Source: Ignavibacterium sp.
GTDB taxonomy: Bacteria; Bacteroidota; Ignavibacteria; Ignavibacteriales; Ignavibacteriaceae
Reading direction: 5' to 3'
DNA length: 64,000 nucleotides
Assembly (NCBI GenBank): GCA_032027145.1
Contig: JAVSMP010000001.1
Span: 434,001 to 498,000, forward strand
A program made the translations under genes and the position numbers. This document shows, piece after piece, positions 3,403-17,179 of the stretch. The notes below the pieces were generated by a model. It had not been told where the DNA came from, did not search any database, and was given only the letters and a program-made list of their open reading frames with translations. Position 1 is the first letter of the stretch. The number at the start of each line of letters is the position of its first letter.

Positions 3403-6400
3403 TTAAATATCTTCAACTACAATATCTACAACATCGCTGAAACCATTTAACTCCGGATAGTACATTAAGTAACCCTGTGCGGGCATAATTTTATACTCAC
3501 CGGGAATCTGAGCTTTAATAATATAAGAGAATTCCATCCCTTTCTGACTCTTAGTTACAAAGAATGCAACCTTTTCATCACGGTATTCTCTTTCGGCAAA
3601 GTGCCAGCGCCAAGGCATATAATCATATAAATAATCACTGTATGTATTGTAGTTGTTTTCACCATCAATAAAATATCTGTCCATTTCCTTTACAACCTCA
3701 AAGCCCGAAGGAATCATATCTTCTAAAATAAAATAATCAAGATTATCAGATTTCGATTCAACAAAAGTCTTTACGAAAATATCCTGTCCGCTTTTAACTA
3801 TTCCATCAAAGTCTTTCTTATAATAAATTATGTGTCCATCTTTGCTGCCTGTTTCCAGTATGTAATACTCTCTTCTTATCTTAAAACCATTGTCATTCTT
3901 AACAGATGCAAGCTCAGTTGTAAAGTATTCGTTGAATCCGGAAAAATACAAAGCACCCTTACCTGATTTTTCTATTCTAATCCTGTTCCTGCCCTTTCTT
4001 AAAATCTTTTCTTTATCATCAGATATTTTGATTGTCTTCCCTTCATTAAATACATCATCTTTATCAAACTTTGCTGAATAAACTTCTTTATCATTTACGA
4101 AAACCTTTGCAGTATAATCAGGATCAAGTTCCTTTGTAATTTTCAAATAATCAGTTAACGCAAACAACACAACAGCGGTTTCCTGTGTAGAGCGCCAGGA
4201 GTATCCTTGTTTTTTTTGTATCAGCCATTTAACTGCTTTTTCTATCAATTCAGAATTTCCTTCAATATTAAGAATAGCCTTAACTGCAAATGCAGTTCCC
4301 TGTACATTATCATTCTGCCAGTTGTAATGCCATCCTTTGCCGCTCCAAAAGGCAAATGATTTTTCTTCATTAACTTGTTTTAGAATTTCAGCAGCAAGTT
4401 CCTTTGCCTTTGAAGTTTCATTCATATTCTTTAATGAAATTGCAAGCAAAGAAAGCGGATAGGACTGAAGGTCTTTTCTTAAAAGAATATTAATTATCTC
4501 AAGATAATTTCCTTTATCATATTGTTGGTTTTTTAAAGCAGTACTTAAAGCATAAATCATATATGATAGAGTTGTTTCGTCAATATCTGCTTTAGCATTA
4601 ATAATTTGATTCTTAAGGTTGTTCAATCCACTCTGATAAACATTTTCATTGATATTATATCCGGCTTCTTTTGCAAGACCCATTCCATAGATAACATAAG
4701 CAGTCATATATGGGTTAGAATTATCATTCTTCCACCATCCCCATCCACCATCGGAATGTTGATGTTCGTAAAGACGCTTTAGACCTGCTTCGACAAATTT
4801 AGGCAGCTCTTCTATCGTTTTTGATTTTAACGGGACTTTAATTTCATTAAATGTATTTGAAACAATAATTGTTGGCAGAAATCTGCTCATAGTCTGTTCA
4901 ACACAGCCATAAGGATAGCCGGCAAGGTCATCAAGAGATTTTAAAATAGTTCCGGCAATTGATGGAGCTACACTAAAAGAAAGCGTAGCTGATCTAAGAT
5001 CAAAATTATTCGGTAAATCAAAATCGAATGTTTCATTAACATTGTCATTGGTATAATTTTTTACAATTGGCTCAATCACCTTAACACCATTCGGTAAAAC
5101 TGGAACTTTAACTTCCATTGCATCTGATTCTTCATTTGTAAGCGCCGAAGCTTTTAATGTTGCTTCCCCGGTTGGAAAATCAACTTTAACTTTCCAATCA
5201 ATTCTTAACTCTGAATTAGCAGCAATCTCAACTTCATAAACCTTTTTAACCGAAAACTTTTCCGCTTCTCTACCGCTCTCATTAATCCTTGAACCTAACA
5301 GTTTCAGTTTGTCGGAGTTAAACTCAATTTTAGTTTTTTTCTTAGACGTAAGGTAGTTATGTACAATAGTTGAGATCACAACTTCATCGCCCTGCCTGAA
5401 AAAACGCGGAGTTTCCATCCTAATAAGAAGATCTTTTCTGCTTATAAATTTATTTGTGCTTTGTCCAACATCGGTCTGTTTTGTAATACCACGAACAGTT
5501 GTTCGCCATGTTGTTAAATTATCAGGAATTTTGAACTGTACTTTTGCTTTTCCATTATTATCAGTTACAACATGTGCTTTCCATATTAATGCATCAACAA
5601 AGTTTGTTCGGATATCTGCCTGCAAGTAAGAGGATTTATCATTAGTTTCTTTTTGCTTAAGTATAAGCGATGAAGGCATTTTTTCATCTTTTGATGATTC
5701 AATGCTCAGCTCATCTGCAGTTTCATTTCTGGATTGTCCGCTGGTAATACCTTGGCTACGCATCCTTTCAATTTGCTGATCCTGTTCTTCAGTAAAAGTA
5801 ATATCATACTTTTTTTCAACATCTATTTTAACATCATCAATTAAAAGCATTCCGCCATATCCTGCAGAAACAAAAAGCTGATAATTACCTTTTGCAATAT
5901 TTTTTATCTCATAATAACCGAGTGAATCGACTTTGGCAGAGTAGTAATATTTCTCACCGGTAAGCATTACAAATAATCCATCAGGAATTTTTTCCTGTCC
6001 CGGGATAATAATTTTTCCATATAACCTGCCTTTGTAAGTTTTATCATCCTTCTTATAAGAAAAATAATTTTTATCAATATAGGTAGCTGTTCTGCTGTAA
6101 GTACTAAAGTAACCATATTGCAATGAATTATTAGTCGAGATAAAATAACGTTGCGGAGAATAGAAAAAAGTTTCTATGGGTTGAGTGTCATCTTCTTTAA
6201 TTGCATAAATGCTTTCATCAATAATTCCGAAACTTATTTCAGTATTGTTAACAGGATTGCCCAGATAATCCTTTACAGAGATTTCGTAATCAGCTTGCTC
6301 ACCGGGCTTATAAATATCTTTAGATGGAGTTAGAGCAATATTTAAAAACTTATCTTTCGCAAGAACACCTATCAGTTTGGTTGTTTGATACAGCATTCTG

Positions 6401-8430
6401 TCCTTTATAAAACTTATCGAAATATTAAAACTCGGGGAAAATTTTTCTGTCAGTTCTTCTCTTATCTCAAAACTATTTTTTACTGGTTTAAGTTTTTTAT
6501 AAGAGAGAATCTTGTCAGTTTCATAAGAAAGTAAAAGCTCCTGATCCGGATCTGGAATAAATACATAGGCTATTAAAGAGTCTCCCTTTTCATAAGCTTC
6601 TTTATCCGTTATAATCTCTAAGCCTGCATTAGTTCTTTGATAATAATAATTATCAACATCTCCGACATAAAAAGAACTTGAAGTTTCAATCTCTCTTTCC
6701 TTCTCGTCAAAGGCAATAATCGTATAACTAAAGTAACCGGTTACATCCCTCTTTGGAAAAAACTTTACAACTGCTGAACCGGCTACATTTGTTTTTGCCC
6801 ATATAGTATCTGTATAAGACGTTTTATTTACATATCTGGAATCACCCGGATAATAAACGATTACTCTAAAGTCGGTTTGAACAGGTTTATCTGAAAAGTC
6901 AGAGGTATTTACTTTTAGTTTTACTTCTGAACCTTGCTTAAAGAACCATTTCTCAGGTGAAGTTGAGATTGTAAAAGACCCTCTGGTAACAAACGCTTCG
7001 GTAAAACCATTTATTGCCCTGCGTGAAGCATCTGTAACCTGTGCAACAATAGAATATTGATAATCACCTGAATTATCCGAATTATCTGAACCAATCTTAT
7101 ACGATAATTCATATTTCCCATCTTCATTTAAAGTTCCCGACTCCTGAAAGATTAATTCCTTCTGACTGCTGATATATCTGTCTGATTTAAAACCTCCATA
7201 AAACCATGACCATTCACTCCAATACCACCAGGGTCTCCAAAAGTATTGTTTGTAAATACTAACTTGAACATCAGCATTCTTTACAGGGGAACCAAAATAA
7301 TAATCTGCTGTTACTGTAGCAGTTAATTTATCCCCCCTCGAATACTGCTTTCGATCTGTAACAACATTTACTTTGAACTCCGGCTTTTTATATTCCTCAA
7401 CTGAAAAGGAACCATAATATGCTTGTTCATCTTTTTTTAATATTATCGAATAGTAGCCAAGGTCTGCATCTTCGTCCAGAAAAAAGCTGCCTGACAAGGT
7501 GCCAAATTCATTTGTTGTGGCTTCACCTGAGTAAACTTCTTTATCTTTTGATGACTTTACTGTTATAGAGAATTTTTGTTCAGGAATATTTTGGTATTCA
7601 TTTCCTGCTTTGTTCCTGAAAATAGCTTTGAAGTTTATCTCTTGTGCAGGTCTGTAAACTGGCTGTTGAGTGTAAATATAGGCAGTCAGATATTCATTTT
7701 GTCCCTGATTAAAATAAAAGTATGGGTCGGATAATAATATTTCATCATCTGCATACCCGAAAAGTTGAATAATCGAATTATCAGCACTTTCAAAATCTGT
7801 CAACTTTACATACATAACTCCATCTTTGTCAGCTCGTCTTGAACCGATTAACTTCCCATTCTGCAAAAAATCAAACTTTGCAGATTTATTGAATTGCCCT
7901 GTTTTTGCATCAGCAATATATGCCAGGATTTCCTTCTGGTTATTCTTGTATACCATACTAAGATTAGTTACCACTATTGCACAATAACCAACCTTATCTT
8001 CTCGGATTGCCTGAACAATATAAATTCCGGGTTTTTCAATCTTCCCAACATTGATCTCGTTATAGCCATACTGAGCTTTTTTATCTGGCTTAATCTCCCA
8101 TTGTTTAATAAGTGATGTATATTTTAATAAAAGAACATTATCCTTTCCCCATATATCAAACGAATAATGACTGTAGTTTTGATCAAGAAGGGAGAAAAAA
8201 GTAACCGGATCGTTGATCTTGAGTAGTTTAAGTTGAAATTTCTCGCTTATTTCGGCATAGGTATAAAGATTTAATTTTACTATGTCGCCAGGGGCATAAG
8301 AAGAATTATTTGAAATATAGAAATTATTGTTTTCCTCCAGGAGCTGCAATCTTGTCGAACCGCCAAAAAATAAAGTTGTAATAAAAATAATAATCAGTAA
8401 AAAAATCTCTTTAATGAGTTTCACTTTCAT
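3403..8430 (-). CDS. Bacterial alpha-2-macroglobulin family protein
   Basis: A 1675-residue exported protein of the bacterial alpha-2-macroglobulin family, thought to trap foreign proteases at the cell surface or in the periplasm. The start at 8430 is chosen because GGAG lies just upstream and it gives a clean signal peptide; a frame extension to 8520 adds 30 residues without such a site. Macroglobulin-type beta domains fill the first two thirds, with a carboxypeptidase-regulatory-like fold around 770-830. The thioester motif CVEQ (family CxEQ) is present near residue 1175, within GCVEQTMSRF, followed by the alpha-helical thioester domain with GGWGWW. The thioester means it can in principle bond covalently to its prey. 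No penicillin-binding protein 1C gene lies beside it, unlike in Escherichia coli. It converges with the carboxypeptidase gene. Confidence 0.93.
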   Translation of the reverse strand: MKVKLIKEIFLLIIIFITTLFFGGSTRLQLLEENNNFYISNNSSYAPGDIVKLNLYTYAEISEKFQLKLLKINDPVTFFSLLDQNYSHYSFDIWGKDNVLLLKYTSLIKQWEIKPDKKAQYGYNEINVGKIEKPGIYIVQAIREDKVGYCAIVVTNLSMVYKNNQKEILAYIADAKTGQFNKSAKFDFLQNGKLIGSRRADKDGVMYVKLTDFESADNSIIQLFGYADDEILLSDPYFYFNQGQNEYLTAYIYTQQPVYRPAQEINFKAIFRNKAGNEYQNIPEQKFSITVKSSKDKEVYSGEATTNEFGTLSGSFFLDEDADLGYYSIILKKDEQAYYGSFSVEEYKKPEFKVNVVTDRKQYSRGDKLTATVTADYYFGSPVKNADVQVSIYKQYFWRPWWYWSEWSWFYGGFKSDRYISSQKELIFQESGTLNEDGKYELSYKIGSDNSDNSGDYQYSIVAQVTDASRRAINGFTEAFVTRGSFTISTSPEKWFFKQGSEVKLKVNTSDFSDKPVQTDFRVIVYYPGDSRYVNKTSYTDTIWAKTNVAGSAVVKFFPKRDVTGYFSYTIIAFDEKEREIETSSSFYVGDVDNYYYQRTNAGLEIITDKEAYEKGDSLIAYVFIPDPDQELLLSYETDKILSYKKLKPVKNSFEIREELTEKFSPSFNISISFIKDRMLYQTTKLIGVLAKDKFLNIALTPSKDIYKPGEQADYEISVKDYLGNPVNNTEISFGIIDESIYAIKEDDTQPIETFFYSPQRYFISTNNSLQYGYFSTYSRTATYIDKNYFSYKKDDKTYKGRLYGKIIIPGQEKIPDGLFVMLTGEKYYYSAKVDSLGYYEIKNIAKGNYQLFVSAGYGGMLLIDDVKIDVEKKYDITFTEEQDQQIERMRSQGITSGQSRNETADELSIESSKDEKMPSSLILKQKETNDKSSYLQADIRTNFVDALIWKAHVVTDNNGKAKVQFKIPDNLTTWRTTVRGITKQTDVGQSTNKFISRKDLLIRMETPRFFRQGDEVVISTIVHNYLTSKKKTKIEFNSDKLKLLGSRINESGREAEKFSVKKVYEVEIAANSELRIDWKVKVDFPTGEATLKASALTNEESDAMEVKVPVLPNGVKVIEPIVKNYTNDNVNETFDFDLPNNFDLRSATLSFSVAPSIAGTILKSLDDLAGYPYGCVEQTMSRFLPTIIVSNTFNEIKVPLKSKTIEELPKFVEAGLKRLYEHQHSDGGWGWWKNDNSNPYMTAYVIYGMGLAKEAGYNINENVYQSGLNNLKNQIINAKADIDETTLSYMIYALSTALKNQQYDKGNYLEIINILLRKDLQSYPLSLLAISLKNMNETSKAKELAAEILKQVNEEKSFAFWSGKGWHYNWQNDNVQGTAFAVKAILNIEGNSELIEKAVKWLIQKKQGYSWRSTQETAVVLFALTDYLKITKELDPDYTAKVFVNDKEVYSAKFDKDDVFNEGKTIKISDDKEKILRKGRNRIRIEKSGKGALYFSGFNEYFTTELASVKNDNGFKIRREYYILETGSKDGHIIYYKKDFDGIVKSGQDIFVKTFVESKSDNLDYFILEDMIPSGFEVVKEMDRYFIDGENNYNTYSDYLYDYMPWRWHFAEREYRDEKVAFFVTKSQKGMEFSYIIKAQIPGEYKIMPAQGYLMYYPELNGFSDVVDIVVEDI

Positions 8431-8689
8431 GTTTTCTCCAAAATTTTGAGTTTTTATACAAACATAAAAAATAAAAGTGCCAATTCCTGCCTTTGTTAAG
8501 TTCAGAATCTCACTGAACAAGGTATTTCGAATACTATCAAAACAGAATAATCGACTATTAAACCAATATAGTTGAGTAATCTGGATTTTTATATGAGGCT
8601 CTCAGAACAAAATAAAGTATTGGATGGTCTTACTGACCGGATTAATTTTGAATCAGCAATCTGATATGTTTAACTAATCTGAGGTTTTA

Positions 8690-11711: not shown

Positions 11712-11856
11712 ATTATTAACTACTTTACTCTTTAAATCAATTAAATTGTGTGGCAACATATTAAAAAACAGTTATTTTAACAACACAATTCAAATCAGTT
11801 AAGAGTCCGGACACTAGAAGAATTATAAGATATTGCAATCAAAAGAAATTGATATT

Positions 11857-13932
11857 ATGAAAAAACCAAATAGACTTGTCAATGAAAAAAATCCTTATCT
11901 GCTTCAGCATGCTTACAATCCGGTTGATTGGTATCCCTGGTGCGATGAGGCGTTTGAAAGAGCCAAAATTGAAAACAAACCTGTATTCCTTTCGATTGGC
12001 TATTCAACATGCCATTGGTGCCATGTAATGGAAAAAGAATCATTTGAAGATGACCAAGTTGCTAAGCTTATGAATGATTCTTTTATTTCAATTAAAGTTG
12101 ATAGAGAAGAAAGACCGGACATTGACGGAATATATATGTCTGTTTGTCAAATGATTACCGGCAGCGGCGGCTGGCCCTTAACAGTTGTGATGACTCCGGA
12201 TAAAAAACCATTTTTTGTCGGAACATATTTTCCAAAACATCAAAGATTTAATAGAATCGGTATGATGGAACTTATCCCCAAAATAAAAGACATCTGGACA
12301 ACCAGAAAAGATGAAGTACTTAAATCTGCTGAAGAAATTTCTTTTTCAATTAACAATCAGGACACTATCCAAGGATCTGTGAGCATTAATGAAGCTATTC
12401 TTGATAAAGCGTATCAGGAACTTAGCGAAAATTTTGATGATGAATCTGGAGGATTTAATACTGCACCCAAATTTCCATCTCCACATAATTTGATGTTTCT
12501 TTTAAGATACTGGAAAAAGTCTGGTCATAGCAGGGCTCTTGAAATGGTTGAACTAACTCTAACACAAATGAGACTTGGCGGCATATACGATCATATTGGA
12601 TTTGGCTTTGCACGATACTCAACCGATAGTAACTGGATAGTACCGCACTTTGAAAAAATGTTATACGATCAGGCAATGCTGGTAATGGCTTATACTGAAA
12701 CTTTTCTTGCAACAAAAAATCAATTTTATAAAGCAACTGCTGAAGAAATCCTGGAATATGTTCTAAGAGATATGACCAATAAAGAGGGCGGATTTTTTTC
12801 AGCTGAAGATGCTGACAGCGAAGGCGAAGAAGGTAAATTTTATTTATGGAATACTGATGAAATCAGAAACATATTAAGTAAAGATGAATCAGATTTAGTG
12901 CTAAAAGTTTTTAACATTAAGGAAAATGGAAATTGGATTGATGAATCAAAGGGAATAACAAACACAACAAACATTTTCCATCTTAAAAAACCAATTAAGG
13001 AAATCTCAGATGAGATGAATCTTGATCTGGATGATTTCTCAGAAAGATGGGACGTAATTCGCAGAAAACTTTTTAATTACAGAGAAAAAAGAATTCATCC
13101 TCACAAAGACGATAAGATTTTAACCGACTGGAATAGTCTGATGATATCAGCTTTGTCAAAAGCATACCAGGCATTTAACAACGGAGTGTATCTTGATACT
13201 GCCGAAAAATCATTTGCTTTTATAGAAAACTATCTAATAAAAAAAGATGGTAAACTTCTTCATAGATACAAGGATGGAGAATCAGCGGTCGAGGCTTTTA
13301 TTGATGATTATGTTTTTCTGATAAATGCACTTCTGGATTTATTTGAATCAACTTTTAACTACAGATACTTGGAAAAAGCAATAGAGCTTCAATCAATTAT
13401 TGATAAAGAATTTTGGGATGATATGGGCGGTTATTATTTTACATCTGCTCAAAATGAAAAACTTATTGCAAGACAAAAAGTTGTTTATGATGGTGCAGTT
13501 CCTTCAGGTAATTCTATAGCTCTGCTAAATTTGATAAGACTTTTTAAAATTACTGCTGATTTAACTTATCAAACTAAAATTGATGCAACAATAAAGTTTT
13601 TTTCAGGACAGATTTATAGAATTCCTTCAGCTTTTAGTATGTTTTTATGTGGATTAGATTTCTTGTATAGTGATTCAACAGAAATCATCATAGTTTCTAA
13701 AAGCAAAGATGATATTGACAGTAAAGCATTAGCTCTAATTAGAAATACTTTTAGTCCGAACAAGATTATTATATTGAAACTTACTCAGAAAGAAGAAAAT
13801 TTTAATATATTTTTACCCTACACCGAAGGAATGAAATTACTGGACGGTAAAACCACATTTTATGTTTGCAGTAATTATTCCTGTAAACAACCGGTAAATG
13901 AGTTGAGCGAGCTGGAAAAACTAATAACCTAA
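11857..13932 (+). CDS. Thioredoxin-fold DUF255 protein (YyaL/SSP411 family)
   Basis: A 691-residue cytoplasmic protein of the YyaL/Spata20 family. The N-terminal thioredoxin-like domain (DUF255) opens with the family hallmark NPYLLQHA and NPVDWYPW and carries CHWCHVME, a CxxC redox-type motif. The rest is an alpha/alpha six-barrel like that of N-acylglucosamine epimerases and family GH76/88 enzymes, seen in [13 protein letters not shown] and [13 protein letters not shown]. The family is widespread but its substrate is not established. The ATG at 11857 matches the usual N-terminus; a TTG at 11833 would add eight residues. It precedes the sigma-FecR fusion gene by 83 bases on the same strand. 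Confidence 0.93.
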
Positions 13933-14015
13933 AAACTTATTCATATTGAAATATAGATATTTAATATTTGTTGAAGTAATTTTGCAAAACGGTCTAGAAT
14001 ATAATCGGAGAAATC

Positions 14016-15578
14016 GTGAGTTCAGATAATAAATTCGTAAGGTCATTAATTGAAAGTGCCAAGCTTGGGAACAATGCAGCTATTGAACAGCTTTTTCAGA
14101 TGAATCTTGCCAAAATATATGCCTTTGCACTTAGATTAACCGCTAATAAATCATTAGCCGAAACAATTACCAAAGACACTTTTATTGAAGCCTGGAAAAA
14201 AATCAATCTCGTTCGATCTGATGCCTCTCTGCTTAAATGGTTAAATTCAATCACTGTTTACAAAACAATTGAAGCATTTAGAAGTAAGAAATCAAAAAAC
14301 AAAACAGACCATCAGGATCTTAAAGAACTTGAATCAAAATGTGAGCTGGATAAATATCTAATTACACTTCCTGATCAGGAAAGAATGACCTTTGTTCTCA
14401 ATAAGGTTGAAGGATATACTCTTGAGGAAATTTCGGATATGATGGGAACAAAAAAAGATCAGGTTCAAGCTCAGTTAAATATTGCAATTGACAAGCTTAC
14501 AGAAAACATCCCTTCAATAAAAGATGAAAATATACTTATTGAAAAACTTGCACAATTGCAGCCTGAAATCCAACCATCAGCAGAGGTAAGAGATGGTATA
14601 TTTTCTTATATAATGGATGAAAAGATTCGTGAGAAAAGGGAGTTGGAAAAAATTGCTTCTGCATTAGCTGAAAAAGAAAAAAGAGAAAATCAGATAGATG
14701 AGTCTGAAGAAACCAATGAATTTGTTCCGGAACCAGTTGTTGTAAAACCTAAAAAAGATTTTAGTATTAATTTTGCTGTTATAAAAAAAATTCTGTATGG
14801 CATTATTGCTGTATTTGTATTAATAGTAGCCTATATGTTTATTACTGCACCGTCCGGGGGATGGCAAATTATATCAATGACAGGACAGCCAAAATTAAAT
14901 AATAATGATATGAGTAAGAATGATGATTGGTCAGCTGATGATGTTATTCAGACTGATGAGAATTCATCAATTACTTTTGCAATCCCAAAAATAGGGAGAT
15001 TACTTATAGATCCTTTAACCAATATAAGCAGAACAAAAAATGATCAGCTAAAACTTGAAACAGGACAGATTAAAAAGTTTGAAGGGGATGCTACTGATGT
15101 TTTAACAGTTATTACTCCTTTAGCAAAATTTACGGAGTTGTATAAAGGCAGTGCGTTCAGATTAAGTGTTGCTGCCGACGAAGTGAGTAAATTGATTGTT
15201 GAGAGCGGATGGATAGTGGTAAGTGTTAAAGAGTTTGATTCTTATGTACCGAAAAATTTTGGCTGTTTGGTGATGAGGGGAAAGTACGCAATGCCATATC
15301 CATTGGATACAGCACCTCAACTGATAAGCTTACTTGAAAACTTTTCAGGAGTTACTGACCCTACAATTGGAACTGTATTATCTCTGGCAACTAAAAAAGA
15401 ATCACTGACTCTATGGCATCTTCTTCAGTTAGTAAGCAGCGAAAACAGATTTCTTGTTTTTGATAAATTAAACGAATTAATTCCTGCTCCAAATGGTGTA
15501 ACCAAGGCAGGAATCCAAGGGTTAAATAAGGATATGCTTTTAAATTGGCGTCAGGAAATTGAACTGAAAATGGATTGA
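14016..15578 (+). CDS. ECF-type sigma factor fused to a membrane-anchored FecR-like domain
   Basis: A 520-residue protein that joins two functions usually split between two genes. Residues 10-90 look like sigma-70 region 2 (TKDTFIEAWKKI; weakly conserved), and 110-165 look like region 4 (LPDQERMTFVL, then GYTLEEISDMMG as the helix-turn-helix). A charged linker (165-255, with EKREKRE-type repeats) leads to one transmembrane helix at about 257-277. The outer part, 285-410, resembles a FecR domain (TGQPKLN, DDVIQTDENSSITF), and the tail to 520 has no match I know. The start is GTG with GGAG upstream. Inference: a self-contained membrane-tethered regulator that might be freed by proteolysis. Region 2 may be too degenerate to bind a promoter. 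Confidence 0.82.
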   Translation: MSSDNKFVRSLIESAKLGNNAAIEQLFQMNLAKIYAFALRLTANKSLAETITKDTFIEAWKKINLVRSDASLLKWLNSITVYKTIEAFRSKKSKNKTDHQDLKELESKCELDKYLITLPDQERMTFVLNKVEGYTLEEISDMMGTKKDQVQAQLNIAIDKLTENIPSIKDENILIEKLAQLQPEIQPSAEVRDGIFSYIMDEKIREKRELEKIASALAEKEKRENQIDESEETNEFVPEPVVVKPKKDFSINFAVIKKILYGIIAVFVLIVAYMFITAPSGGWQIISMTGQPKLNNNDMSKNDDWSADDVIQTDENSSITFAIPKIGRLLIDPLTNISRTKNDQLKLETGQIKKFEGDATDVLTVITPLAKFTELYKGSAFRLSVAADEVSKLIVESGWIVVSVKEFDSYVPKNFGCLVMRGKYAMPYPLDTAPQLISLLENFSGVTDPTIGTVLSLATKKESLTLWHLLQLVSSENRFLVFDKLNELIPAPNGVTKAGIQGLNKDMLLNWRQEIELKMD

Positions 15579-15763: not shown

Positions 15764-17179
15764 TCATCTTTTGGGTTTATAATAGTGTGCGCTTTGTCCA
15801 AAGAAAACTTCTGCTGCATCCATTATTGTTTCTGATAAAGTTGGATGTGGATGAATTGTCAATTTCAAATCGGTAACATTCGCACCCATTTCGATCGCAA
15901 GAACTCCCTCGGAAATCAACTCACCCGCACCGGGTCCGCAAAGTCCCATTCCTAATATTCTCTGTGTATCAGGATCAACGATCAACTTTGTAACACCATC
16001 ATTTCTATCCAACGTTACTGCTCGCCCGCTTGCAGCCCAGGGAAATTTTGCGACTTCGTATTTTATTCCTTCTTTTCTTGCATGCTCTTCCGTTAATCCT
16101 GCCCAGGCGATTTCCGGATCAGTAAAAACAACGGCAGGAATAGCAAGCGGTTCAAAATATGATTTGTGTCCTGCAATCACTTCAACAGCAACTCTTCCTT
16201 CGTGTGATGCCTTATGTGCAAGCATCGGTTCACCAGCTATATCTCCGATTGCAAAAATGTTAGGATCGGTTGTTCTTAATTGTTTATCAACTTTTATCCA
16301 GCCGCGATCAGTTAAACTTACCTTAGTATTTTCTAAACCAAGTCCTCGCGCTTCCGGTTTCCTTCCAATTGACATCAAAACATAATCGTAAATTTTGTCA
16401 GAAATATTTCCTTTATCATCCTGTATCTTAACACTTATTCCATCTTTGACTTCATTCATTTCAAGAACTTTACTGTTTAACATTACTTCTGCAAAAGATT
16501 TTTTAATCCGCATTGAAAGATAATTTACAAGATCACGATCTGCACCCGGCAATAATCCGGGCATCATCTCAACAACAGACACTTTAGTTCCAAGTGCCTG
16601 ATAAACAGAGCCAAGTTCAAGCCCGATATATCCTCCGCCAATTACTAATAGTGATTTTGGAATCCCAGGCAAATCAAGTGCAGAGGTTGAGTTAAGTAAT
16701 CTTTTTGATTGAATATTTAATGAGGGGATTGAAGTAATAACAGAACCTGTTGCAACAATAGCTTTATCAAATGATTGTTCAATTGTTTGCCCATCAACTT
16801 TTTCGATCTTTAAAGCTGATGAGCTAATAAAGCTTGCTCTGCCTTGTATGAAGTTTATTTTTCTTTGTTTTGATATCTGTCCAAGCCCGCCAGTAAGTTT
16901 GTTTACAACATTATCTTTAAAATCTCTTAATTTGTTTATATTAATTTGCGGCTTGCCGAATTCTATTCCCCAGTTTTTAGCATCTTCAGCTTCGTGAATA
17001 AGCTTAGCAACGTGAAGCAATGCTTTAGAAGGAATACATCCGCGATAAAGACAAACACCTCCTGGATTTTTTTCAAGATCAACAAGAGTAACATCCATAC
17101 CAAGATCAGCGGCAAGAAAAGCAGCAACATATCCGCCGGGTCCACCGCCTATAACTGTTAATTTTATCTTTTCACTCAT
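15764..17179 (-). CDS. lpdA: Dihydrolipoyl dehydrogenase (E3)
   Basis: A 471-residue flavoprotein that re-oxidises the dihydrolipoyl arms of E2 and passes electrons to NAD+. An FAD-binding GGGPGG motif lies at residues 11-16. The redox disulfide is in CLYRGCIPSK (C43 and C48), slightly unlike the more usual CLNxGCIPSK. An NAD-binding GGGYIGLELG is in the middle. The C-terminal HPHPTLSE carries the catalytic His-Glu pair contributed across the dimer. It is the last gene of the aceE-aceF-lpdA set, 67 bases after aceF, with AAAGGAT just upstream of the start. It probably serves this pyruvate dehydrogenase complex and may also serve other 2-oxoacid dehydrogenases. Confidence 0.97.
   Translation of the reverse strand: MSEKIKLTVIGGGPGGYVAAFLAADLGMDVTLVDLEKNPGGVCLYRGCIPSKALLHVAKLIHEAEDAKNWGIEFGKPQININKLRDFKDNVVNKLTGGLGQISKQRKINFIQGRASFISSSALKIEKVDGQTIEQSFDKAIVATGSVITSIPSLNIQSKRLLNSTSALDLPGIPKSLLVIGGGYIGLELGSVYQALGTKVSVVEMMPGLLPGADRDLVNYLSMRIKKSFAEVMLNSKVLEMNEVKDGISVKIQDDKGNISDKIYDYVLMSIGRKPEARGLGLENTKVSLTDRGWIKVDKQLRTTDPNIFAIGDIAGEPMLAHKASHEGRVAVEVIAGHKSYFEPLAIPAVVFTDPEIAWAGLTEEHARKEGIKYEVAKFPWAASGRAVTLDRNDGVTKLIVDPDTQRILGMGLCGPGAGELISEGVLAIEMGANVTDLKLTIHPHPTLSETIMDAAEVFFGQSAHYYKPKR

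Follow-up and report, generated by a model that had tools for sequence, protein, structure and literature searches.

The window analysed here, a 64,000-nt stretch of DNA from Ignavibacterium sp., belongs to a 3.67 Mb single-contig genome. It holds a single open frame in which a sigma factor, a transmembrane (TM) helix and a FecR-like part are joined in one polypeptide. The frame opens with GTG at 14016 and closes with a stop at 15576-15578, and its start region is also found in L002-L004. The gene is flanked by two markers of the locus, and the features of the region are as follows.

11833..13932, forward strand: YyaL-type thioredoxin-domain gene (PF03190), marker of the upstream side of the locus
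13977..13984, forward strand: TAATTTTG, a TAnnTTTG match present in each of the 6 genomes of the genus (as TAAATTTG in one)
14016..15578, forward strand: whole fused ORF, 520 aa plus stop, with a GTG start preceded by cGGAGAA
14037..14300, forward strand: sigma2-like domain, aa 8-95, with Gln53 replaced by Lys, Asn82 replaced by Tyr and Arg89 kept
14337..14510, forward strand: sigma4-like domain, aa 108-165, with the recognition helix GTxKAHLHRAR changed to DQVQAQLNIAI
14526..14630, forward strand: putative anti-sigma domain remnant, aa 171-205, equivalent to helix 4 (by alignment and RsiW profile match; PMC7406223 for the role of helix 4)
14631..14771, forward strand: charged helical linker, aa 206-252, fast evolving
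14772..14846, forward strand: single TM helix, aa 253-277 (AF2 helix, hydropathy)
14856..15230, forward strand: FecR-like beta domain, aa 281-405, predicted to lie outside the cytoplasmic membrane (family-level PF04773, 4m0h profile match, beta strands)
15273..15575, forward strand: C-terminal helical domain, aa 420-520, LTLWHLL..V...R..VFDKLNEL.P.P.GVTK.GI..LN..ML..W..EIE, also found in split anti-sigmas
15764..17179, reverse strand: convergent dihydrolipoamide dehydrogenase (LpdA) gene, marker of the other side of the locus

The ECF sigma-70 fold of the window protein is recognised with both regions above curated cutoffs: in Pfam, Sigma70_r2 scores 30.3 bits against a cutoff of 24 at aa 26-92 and Sigma70_r4_2 scores 28.5 bits against 25.7 at aa 111-155, and the NCBIfam model TIGR02937 (sigma70-ECF) is passed with 53.7 bits (cutoff 42.9). 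The initial annotation had read sigma regions 2 and 4 and one TM helix in a single frame, and the domain search and hydropathy bear this out. There is one clear TM segment, with a Kyte-Doolittle maximum of 2.64 over 19 residues from aa 259, and AF2 places a low-confidence helix at aa 253-277. The low confidence of the AF2 models (mean pLDDT 47.8 for the whole protein, 62.2 for aa 281-520) is due to the fact that just five close sequences were usable, and a PDB fold search with the low-confidence model of aa 281-520 returned nothing meaningful. The absence of a TonB receptor nearby, also noted at the outset, is confirmed: TonB_dep_Rec has no match in the 64 kb, and the nearest lies ∼170 kb away.

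The FecR-family assignment is made through the family profile. Pfam does not detect FecR from the window sequence alone, which falls below threshold, nor anywhere in the window's genome. Among 22 aligned homologous membrane halves, 12 match PF04773 (best 8.3e-7) and 11 match zf-HC2. The profile of the membrane-half family matches RsiW (5wuq_C) at E=3.6e-5 over profile positions 1-76, the ZAS domain, and weakly, over the beta domain (E=0.0086, profile 194-298), a putative anti-sigma factor, 4m0h; it is at this level that the FecR-like outer domain proposed earlier finds its support. No Pfam match was found for the ∼100-aa C-terminal helical domain in the window protein or its relatives. This domain is common to fused and split anti-sigmas, and its constraint is nearly that of sigma2.

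Four other genomes of the genus carry intact fused orthologs with 65-80% identity, and fused relatives occur in other genera of the window's family. In most of the order and in the sampled rest of the class the halves are separate, many of them overlapping as ATGA. Class-level relatives in families f5, f8, f15, f20 and f30 encode the two halves in genes that adjoin or overlap, one for a canonical ECF sigma and one for an anti-sigma built of zinc finger (ZAS), TM and FecR. The membrane-half profile has matches in 116 of 391 genomes (class search, E<=1e-8). Class-level anti-sigma frames of 580-640 aa were considered as fusions and rejected, being separate genes with longer C-termini.

The split pairs of the class provide the reference for the sigma half: 23 canonical sigmas, whose invariant or near-invariant sites were followed in 21 split sigmas of the order, 6 fused sigmas of the window genus and 14 other fused sigmas. 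The contact roles of these positions are those assigned by established ECF structures. Gln53 in region 2.2 is present in 23/23 canonical and 3/21 order-split sigmas and in no fused form (0/6 in the window genus, 0/14 elsewhere). Asn82 in region 2.4 follows the same course (23/23, 2/21, 0/6 and 1/14 in the same sequence of groups), as do Gly148 and Thr149, which precede the recognition helix (each 23/23, 1/21, 0/6 and 0/14). Arg158 is found in 22/23 canonical and 21/21 order-split sigmas, 0/6 of the window genus and 3/14 other fused forms, and Lys151 is kept in 14/21 order-split sigmas. Throughout the order, several further residues of the recognition helix have disappeared from split and from fused sigmas, and the exposed positions of this helix differ even between orthologs of the same genus, some turning acidic. 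Core positions of the fold remain (Leu11, Gly18, Ala48, Trp75, Leu118, Leu128), and Arg89 is kept in the window genus. The other ECF sigmas of the window's genome carry Lys or Arg at 151, and mostly Gln53 and Asn82.

Two of the ten positions checked, Trp75 and Arg89, are retained in the window protein. Among the sigma-2 residues, whose conservation the initial annotation had proposed to examine, Gln53 has become Lys and Asn82 has become Tyr. The region 2.2 Gln, the region 2.4 Asn and the basic region 4.2 recognition helix of an active sigma are absent from it. Judged by this alignment, the window sigma is one that has lost most DNA-contact positions and one core-contact position.

The promoter element of the family has a parallel history. 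Alignment upstream of the canonical sigma genes gives a strongly conserved TAAACC[AT]TTT-N11-GCATC (L064-L070 and L095-L100, e.g. L070 and L066). The ECF-type element AACC-N16-CATC precedes at least 18 of the 23 class-level canonical sigma genes, AAAC-N15-18-CATC precedes all six f15 and all ten f8 sigma genes (expected 0.1-0.2), and related forms occur at f5-like loci. The AAAC-N15-18-CATC pattern is found upstream of 0/21 order-split genes, 0/6 genes of the window genus, 1/14 other fused genes and 0/4 truncated genes. An unbiased gapped-pair scan ranks AACC-N15-GCAT first, with hits at 18 of the 23 canonical loci where shuffles gave at most 6; in the order the scan yields nothing above shuffles, and no common new bipartite motif upstream. 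The classic GGAAC/AAC-CGT patterns of ECF promoters, which were also tried, gave nothing clear beyond chance in any group, unlike the family element AAACC-N16-CATC, which emerged from the alignment only. When whole genomes were scanned, each of ten canonical ones had one to three exact sites, one of them at the sigma gene, and a single exact site turned up in 12 genomes of the order. The class-level element probably marks a small regulon.

Because the split pairs of the order are without both, the contact residues and the element were lost together, before fusion. Upstream of the fused gene, TAnnTTTG is conserved in 6/6 genomes of the window genus. This is the Bacteroidota housekeeping -7 consensus, and constitutive expression from a housekeeping promoter is therefore likely. 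Among the canonical genomes, a second exact site of the class-level element, orthologous in G073 and G100 (L220, L221), lies ∼300 nt upstream of a gene of 693-706 aa without a Pfam match; G073 has a third (L224), which precedes a DUF5916/CBM9 gene.

The anti-sigma half has been trimmed at its start. In the order, most split anti-sigmas have a zinc-finger-type domain at the N-terminus, with the pattern M..CEEV...HD..D......E...H...C..C. In the alignment, the window-type fusion is without the first ∼45 residues of a split anti-sigma, and sigma4 is joined directly to the helix-4 segment. Zinc-finger helices 1-3 (HxxxCxxC) are missing from the window protein and present in many split relatives and in the fused L012; the sequence of the helix-4 region is retained. 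In known complexes, coevolution and crystal data place helix 1 of the anti-sigma against the -35-binding residues of sigma4, and helix 4 covers the face of sigma2 that binds the beta' clamp (PMC7406223). The joint loss of helices 1-3 and of the DNA-reading helix of sigma4, with helix 4 and sigma2 kept, would fit this division of labour between helix 1 and helix 4.

Despite its degenerate sigma, the window protein is not decaying. Within the genus, dN/dS values, which rest on partly saturated synonymous sites, are well below 1 for the whole protein: they are lowest in sigma2 (0.02-0.07 where defined) and the C-terminal domain (0.04-0.10), and are 0.09-0.20 in the FecR part and 0.05-0.44 in the recognition helix. 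The range of sigma2 set against that of the recognition helix indicates that the fold is kept and that the DNA-contact surface is freer.

In family f1 the locus bounded by the YyaL-type gene and the convergent lpdA occurs in several states: with split pairs (G033, G431, G027), with fusions (the window genus, G024, G421, G427, G428, G009), with a form ending in a TM (G032) and with TM-less forms of ∼220-290 aa (G016, G035, G019, G409, G411, G281, G308). At this locus the gene was undetected in G408, G405, G008 and G287 (one other genus, g4). In G002, a fifth other genome of the window genus, the ortholog (L006), 81-83% identical, is frameshifted at about aa 340, which may be a sequencing error since the single-contig assembly has 90% completeness. 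In the membrane-half tree the fused/split label needs four changes, three of them forced by well-supported branches, and the sigma tree needs eight changes for the fused state, three of them forced. The split pairs of G033 and G431, which have the zinc finger, are placed near the fused f1 forms, so that repeated fusion is favoured over re-splitting, a preference that several long branches make unsure. Fusion came after the loss of the contact residues and the element, probably several separate times. Two of these genomes carry additional members: G027 has a second, fused gene (L012) with the zinc-finger HxxxCxxC beside its split pair at the YyaL locus, and G033 (L013) has a second membrane half, L088, which groups with the class-level clade.

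The seven TM-less orthologs at the YyaL-LpdA locus have lost TM and FecR, and the sigma and the helix-4 region are kept in 7/7. Their tails (L011, L016, L030, L151, L155, L156, L161) combine a net charge of +3 to +5 with F/W/L/I residues: KKFGLFSWKKK, KKFGFLNWKKK, RKFNIFGWKKK, KKFGLFNWMKK, GGLFKKILPKSKK, GFLTRIKKFLKK and GKKLMGLFKKKS. A comparable tail filter is passed by 3 of the 46 window ORFs. Net charge and aromatic content alone stand out in these tails, which we take to resemble peripheral membrane-targeting sequences, e.g. that of MinD. The resemblance suggests that membrane contact was kept when FecR was lost, but this is to be read as a lead, the helical hydrophobic moment being mostly non-significant (shuffle p 0.03-0.98).

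The explanation that we prefer, with confidence a little better than even, is that the window protein is a membrane-anchored pseudo-sigma. An autoregulated pair of ECF sigma and ZAS-TM-FecR anti-sigma would have lost promoter reading in the ancestor of the order; the correlated loss of contact residues and element is observed, and it points to the loss of the function itself. Gene fusion would have come later and removed helices 1-3 of the anti-sigma, whose part would have been to block sigma4, while helix 4 stayed. The deletion is read from the alignment; by analogy with solved ECF/anti-sigma complexes, helix 4 would lie on sigma2 and hold its core-RNAP-binding face. An envelope signal is presumably sensed by the FecR-like and C-terminal domains, which would in turn alter the exposure of sigma2 and helix 4 on the cytoplasmic side. 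This module may then bind a partner, either an anti-sigma or other regulator (by mimicry, cf. PhyR-NepR) or core RNA polymerase, and would not carry out promoter-specific initiation. A further step, which we put forward tentatively and at somewhat less than even chances, is that an ECF sigma has here become a signalling module that is tethered to the membrane and no longer directs transcription, in effect a transmembrane sigma mimic, along a traceable series: from a canonical pair with its element, to a split degenerate pair without the element, to fusions losing the zinc finger, to TM-less forms with a cationic tail.

Several points weigh against the pseudo-sigma. An altered sigma could read an altered promoter, and the order-split sigmas keep Lys151 (14/21) and Arg158 (21/21). 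The main effector could lie outside the sigma part, as the C-terminal domain is also well conserved. The AF2 models are of low quality (mean pLDDT 47.8 and 62.2), which leaves the packing of helix 4 on sigma2 putative. The initial annotation offered two readings, release by membrane proteolysis and a purely sensing role for a protein whose sigma has decayed. The data lean towards the latter, corrected in one respect: most contact residues and the element are indeed lost, but 'decayed' does not describe a protein under purifying selection, with sigma2 at a dN/dS of 0.02-0.07.

Fusion of sigma and anti-sigma is already known from IutY of P. putida (ECF243), which has an N-terminal sigma2-sigma4, one TM and a FecR-like periplasmic part (PMC5411451, PMC9249621) and becomes active when Prc and RseP cleave it (PMC5411451, PMC8999054). 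The window protein could be an active sigma of this type, freed by regulated intramembrane proteolysis in response to an envelope signal and acting at altered promoters. This alternative is rather unlikely. In its favour, the parts stand in the same order (cytosolic sigma, one TM, periplasmic FecR-like anti-sigma), sigma2 is strongly constrained, Arg89 is kept in the genus, and proteolytic release is kept in play by the IutY precedent and by the M50 (site-2) and S41 proteases encoded in the window's genome. It has to contend with the loss of Gln53, Asn82 and the recognition helix, whose positions vary within the genus and in part turn acidic, with the absence of the family ECF-type element and of any common new bipartite motif upstream, and with the seven orthologs that lack TM and FecR and therefore offer no substrate for intramembrane proteolysis.

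That the gene is an evolutionary relic, drifting to loss with no regulatory role or with just the FecR/C-terminal sensor still of importance, is improbable. The failure to detect it at the locus in G408, G405, G008 and G287, the loss of TM and FecR in seven orthologs and the frameshift in G002 are what such drift would leave, but the last may be a sequencing error, dN/dS is well below 1 throughout and lowest in sigma2 and the C-terminal domain, and the TM-less orthologs retain sigma and helix 4, the opposite of what a sensor-only gene predicts. That two genes were joined by an error of assembly or annotation, a reading for which the separate and often overlapping halves of same-class and same-order relatives could be cited, is rejected with near certainty because multiple independent assemblies from several genera carry the intact fusion, many at the YyaL-LpdA locus, and a simple frameshift error would not remove the ∼45 residues of the split anti-sigma N-terminus; the gene is continuous, as first described.

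With IutY, the window protein shares the union of sigma, TM and FecR-like part in one polypeptide. In contrast, IutY has 374 aa, works together with the TonB receptor IutA and has an active sigma, which drives iutA, whereas the window protein is without a nearby receptor, the promoter-contact residues or the ECF element, and has an extra C-terminal helical domain; the fusions of its family arose from a pair with a zinc-finger anti-sigma that is found in the same class. In the actinobacterial ECF48, ECF52 and ECF53 (e.g. SCO4117), the C-terminus of the sigma is fused to a zinc-finger anti-sigma, a TM and an extracytoplasmic part, and some ECF36 are also fused sigma/anti-sigma proteins (PMC8999054). 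The zinc finger described there is missing in the window lineage, where the outer part is FecR-like. Among class I (ZAS) anti-sigmas of the RsiW type, to which the split relatives match over the ZAS domain, RsiW is a separate protein, whereas the window protein keeps the helix-4 region alone and adds the FecR-like outer part. The FecI/FecR systems likewise link a FecR-like outer domain to a sigma inhibitor through one TM, but here no TonB receptor lies nearby and the anti-sigma domain of the relatives is a ZAS (zf-HC2). In the alphaproteobacterial PhyR, a sigma-like domain has degenerate promoter- and RNAP-binding regions and a preserved fold (PMC8103513). The window sigma is similarly degenerate with its fold kept under selection, an analogy for which no homology is claimed: PhyR has a receiver domain and belongs to the response regulators, whereas the window protein has a TM and a FecR-like sensor.

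No description of this Ignavibacteriota family was found in the open literature, a search outside which most subscription journals fall. As the fusion itself has a precedent in IutY, it is likely that the membrane-anchored pseudo-sigma is the new element. Few fusions of sigma and anti-sigma have been studied, and PhyR is the main source of what is known about degenerate sigma-like domains; in this case the two traits meet in one family, with intermediates at hand, several of them at one syntenic locus. Because these intermediates are in sequenced genomes, the order of events (first the loss of promoter reading, then fusion, loss of the zinc finger and loss of the TM) is open to reading and to testing. 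If the proposal holds, the pseudo-sigma would be a new use of the sigma fold at the membrane. The family also cautions against taking every Pfam-positive sigma factor of Ignavibacteriota for an active regulator. Elsewhere in the window, a 1705-aa ORF at 3403-8520 has, by eye, the appearance of a bacterial alpha-2-macroglobulin-type protein.
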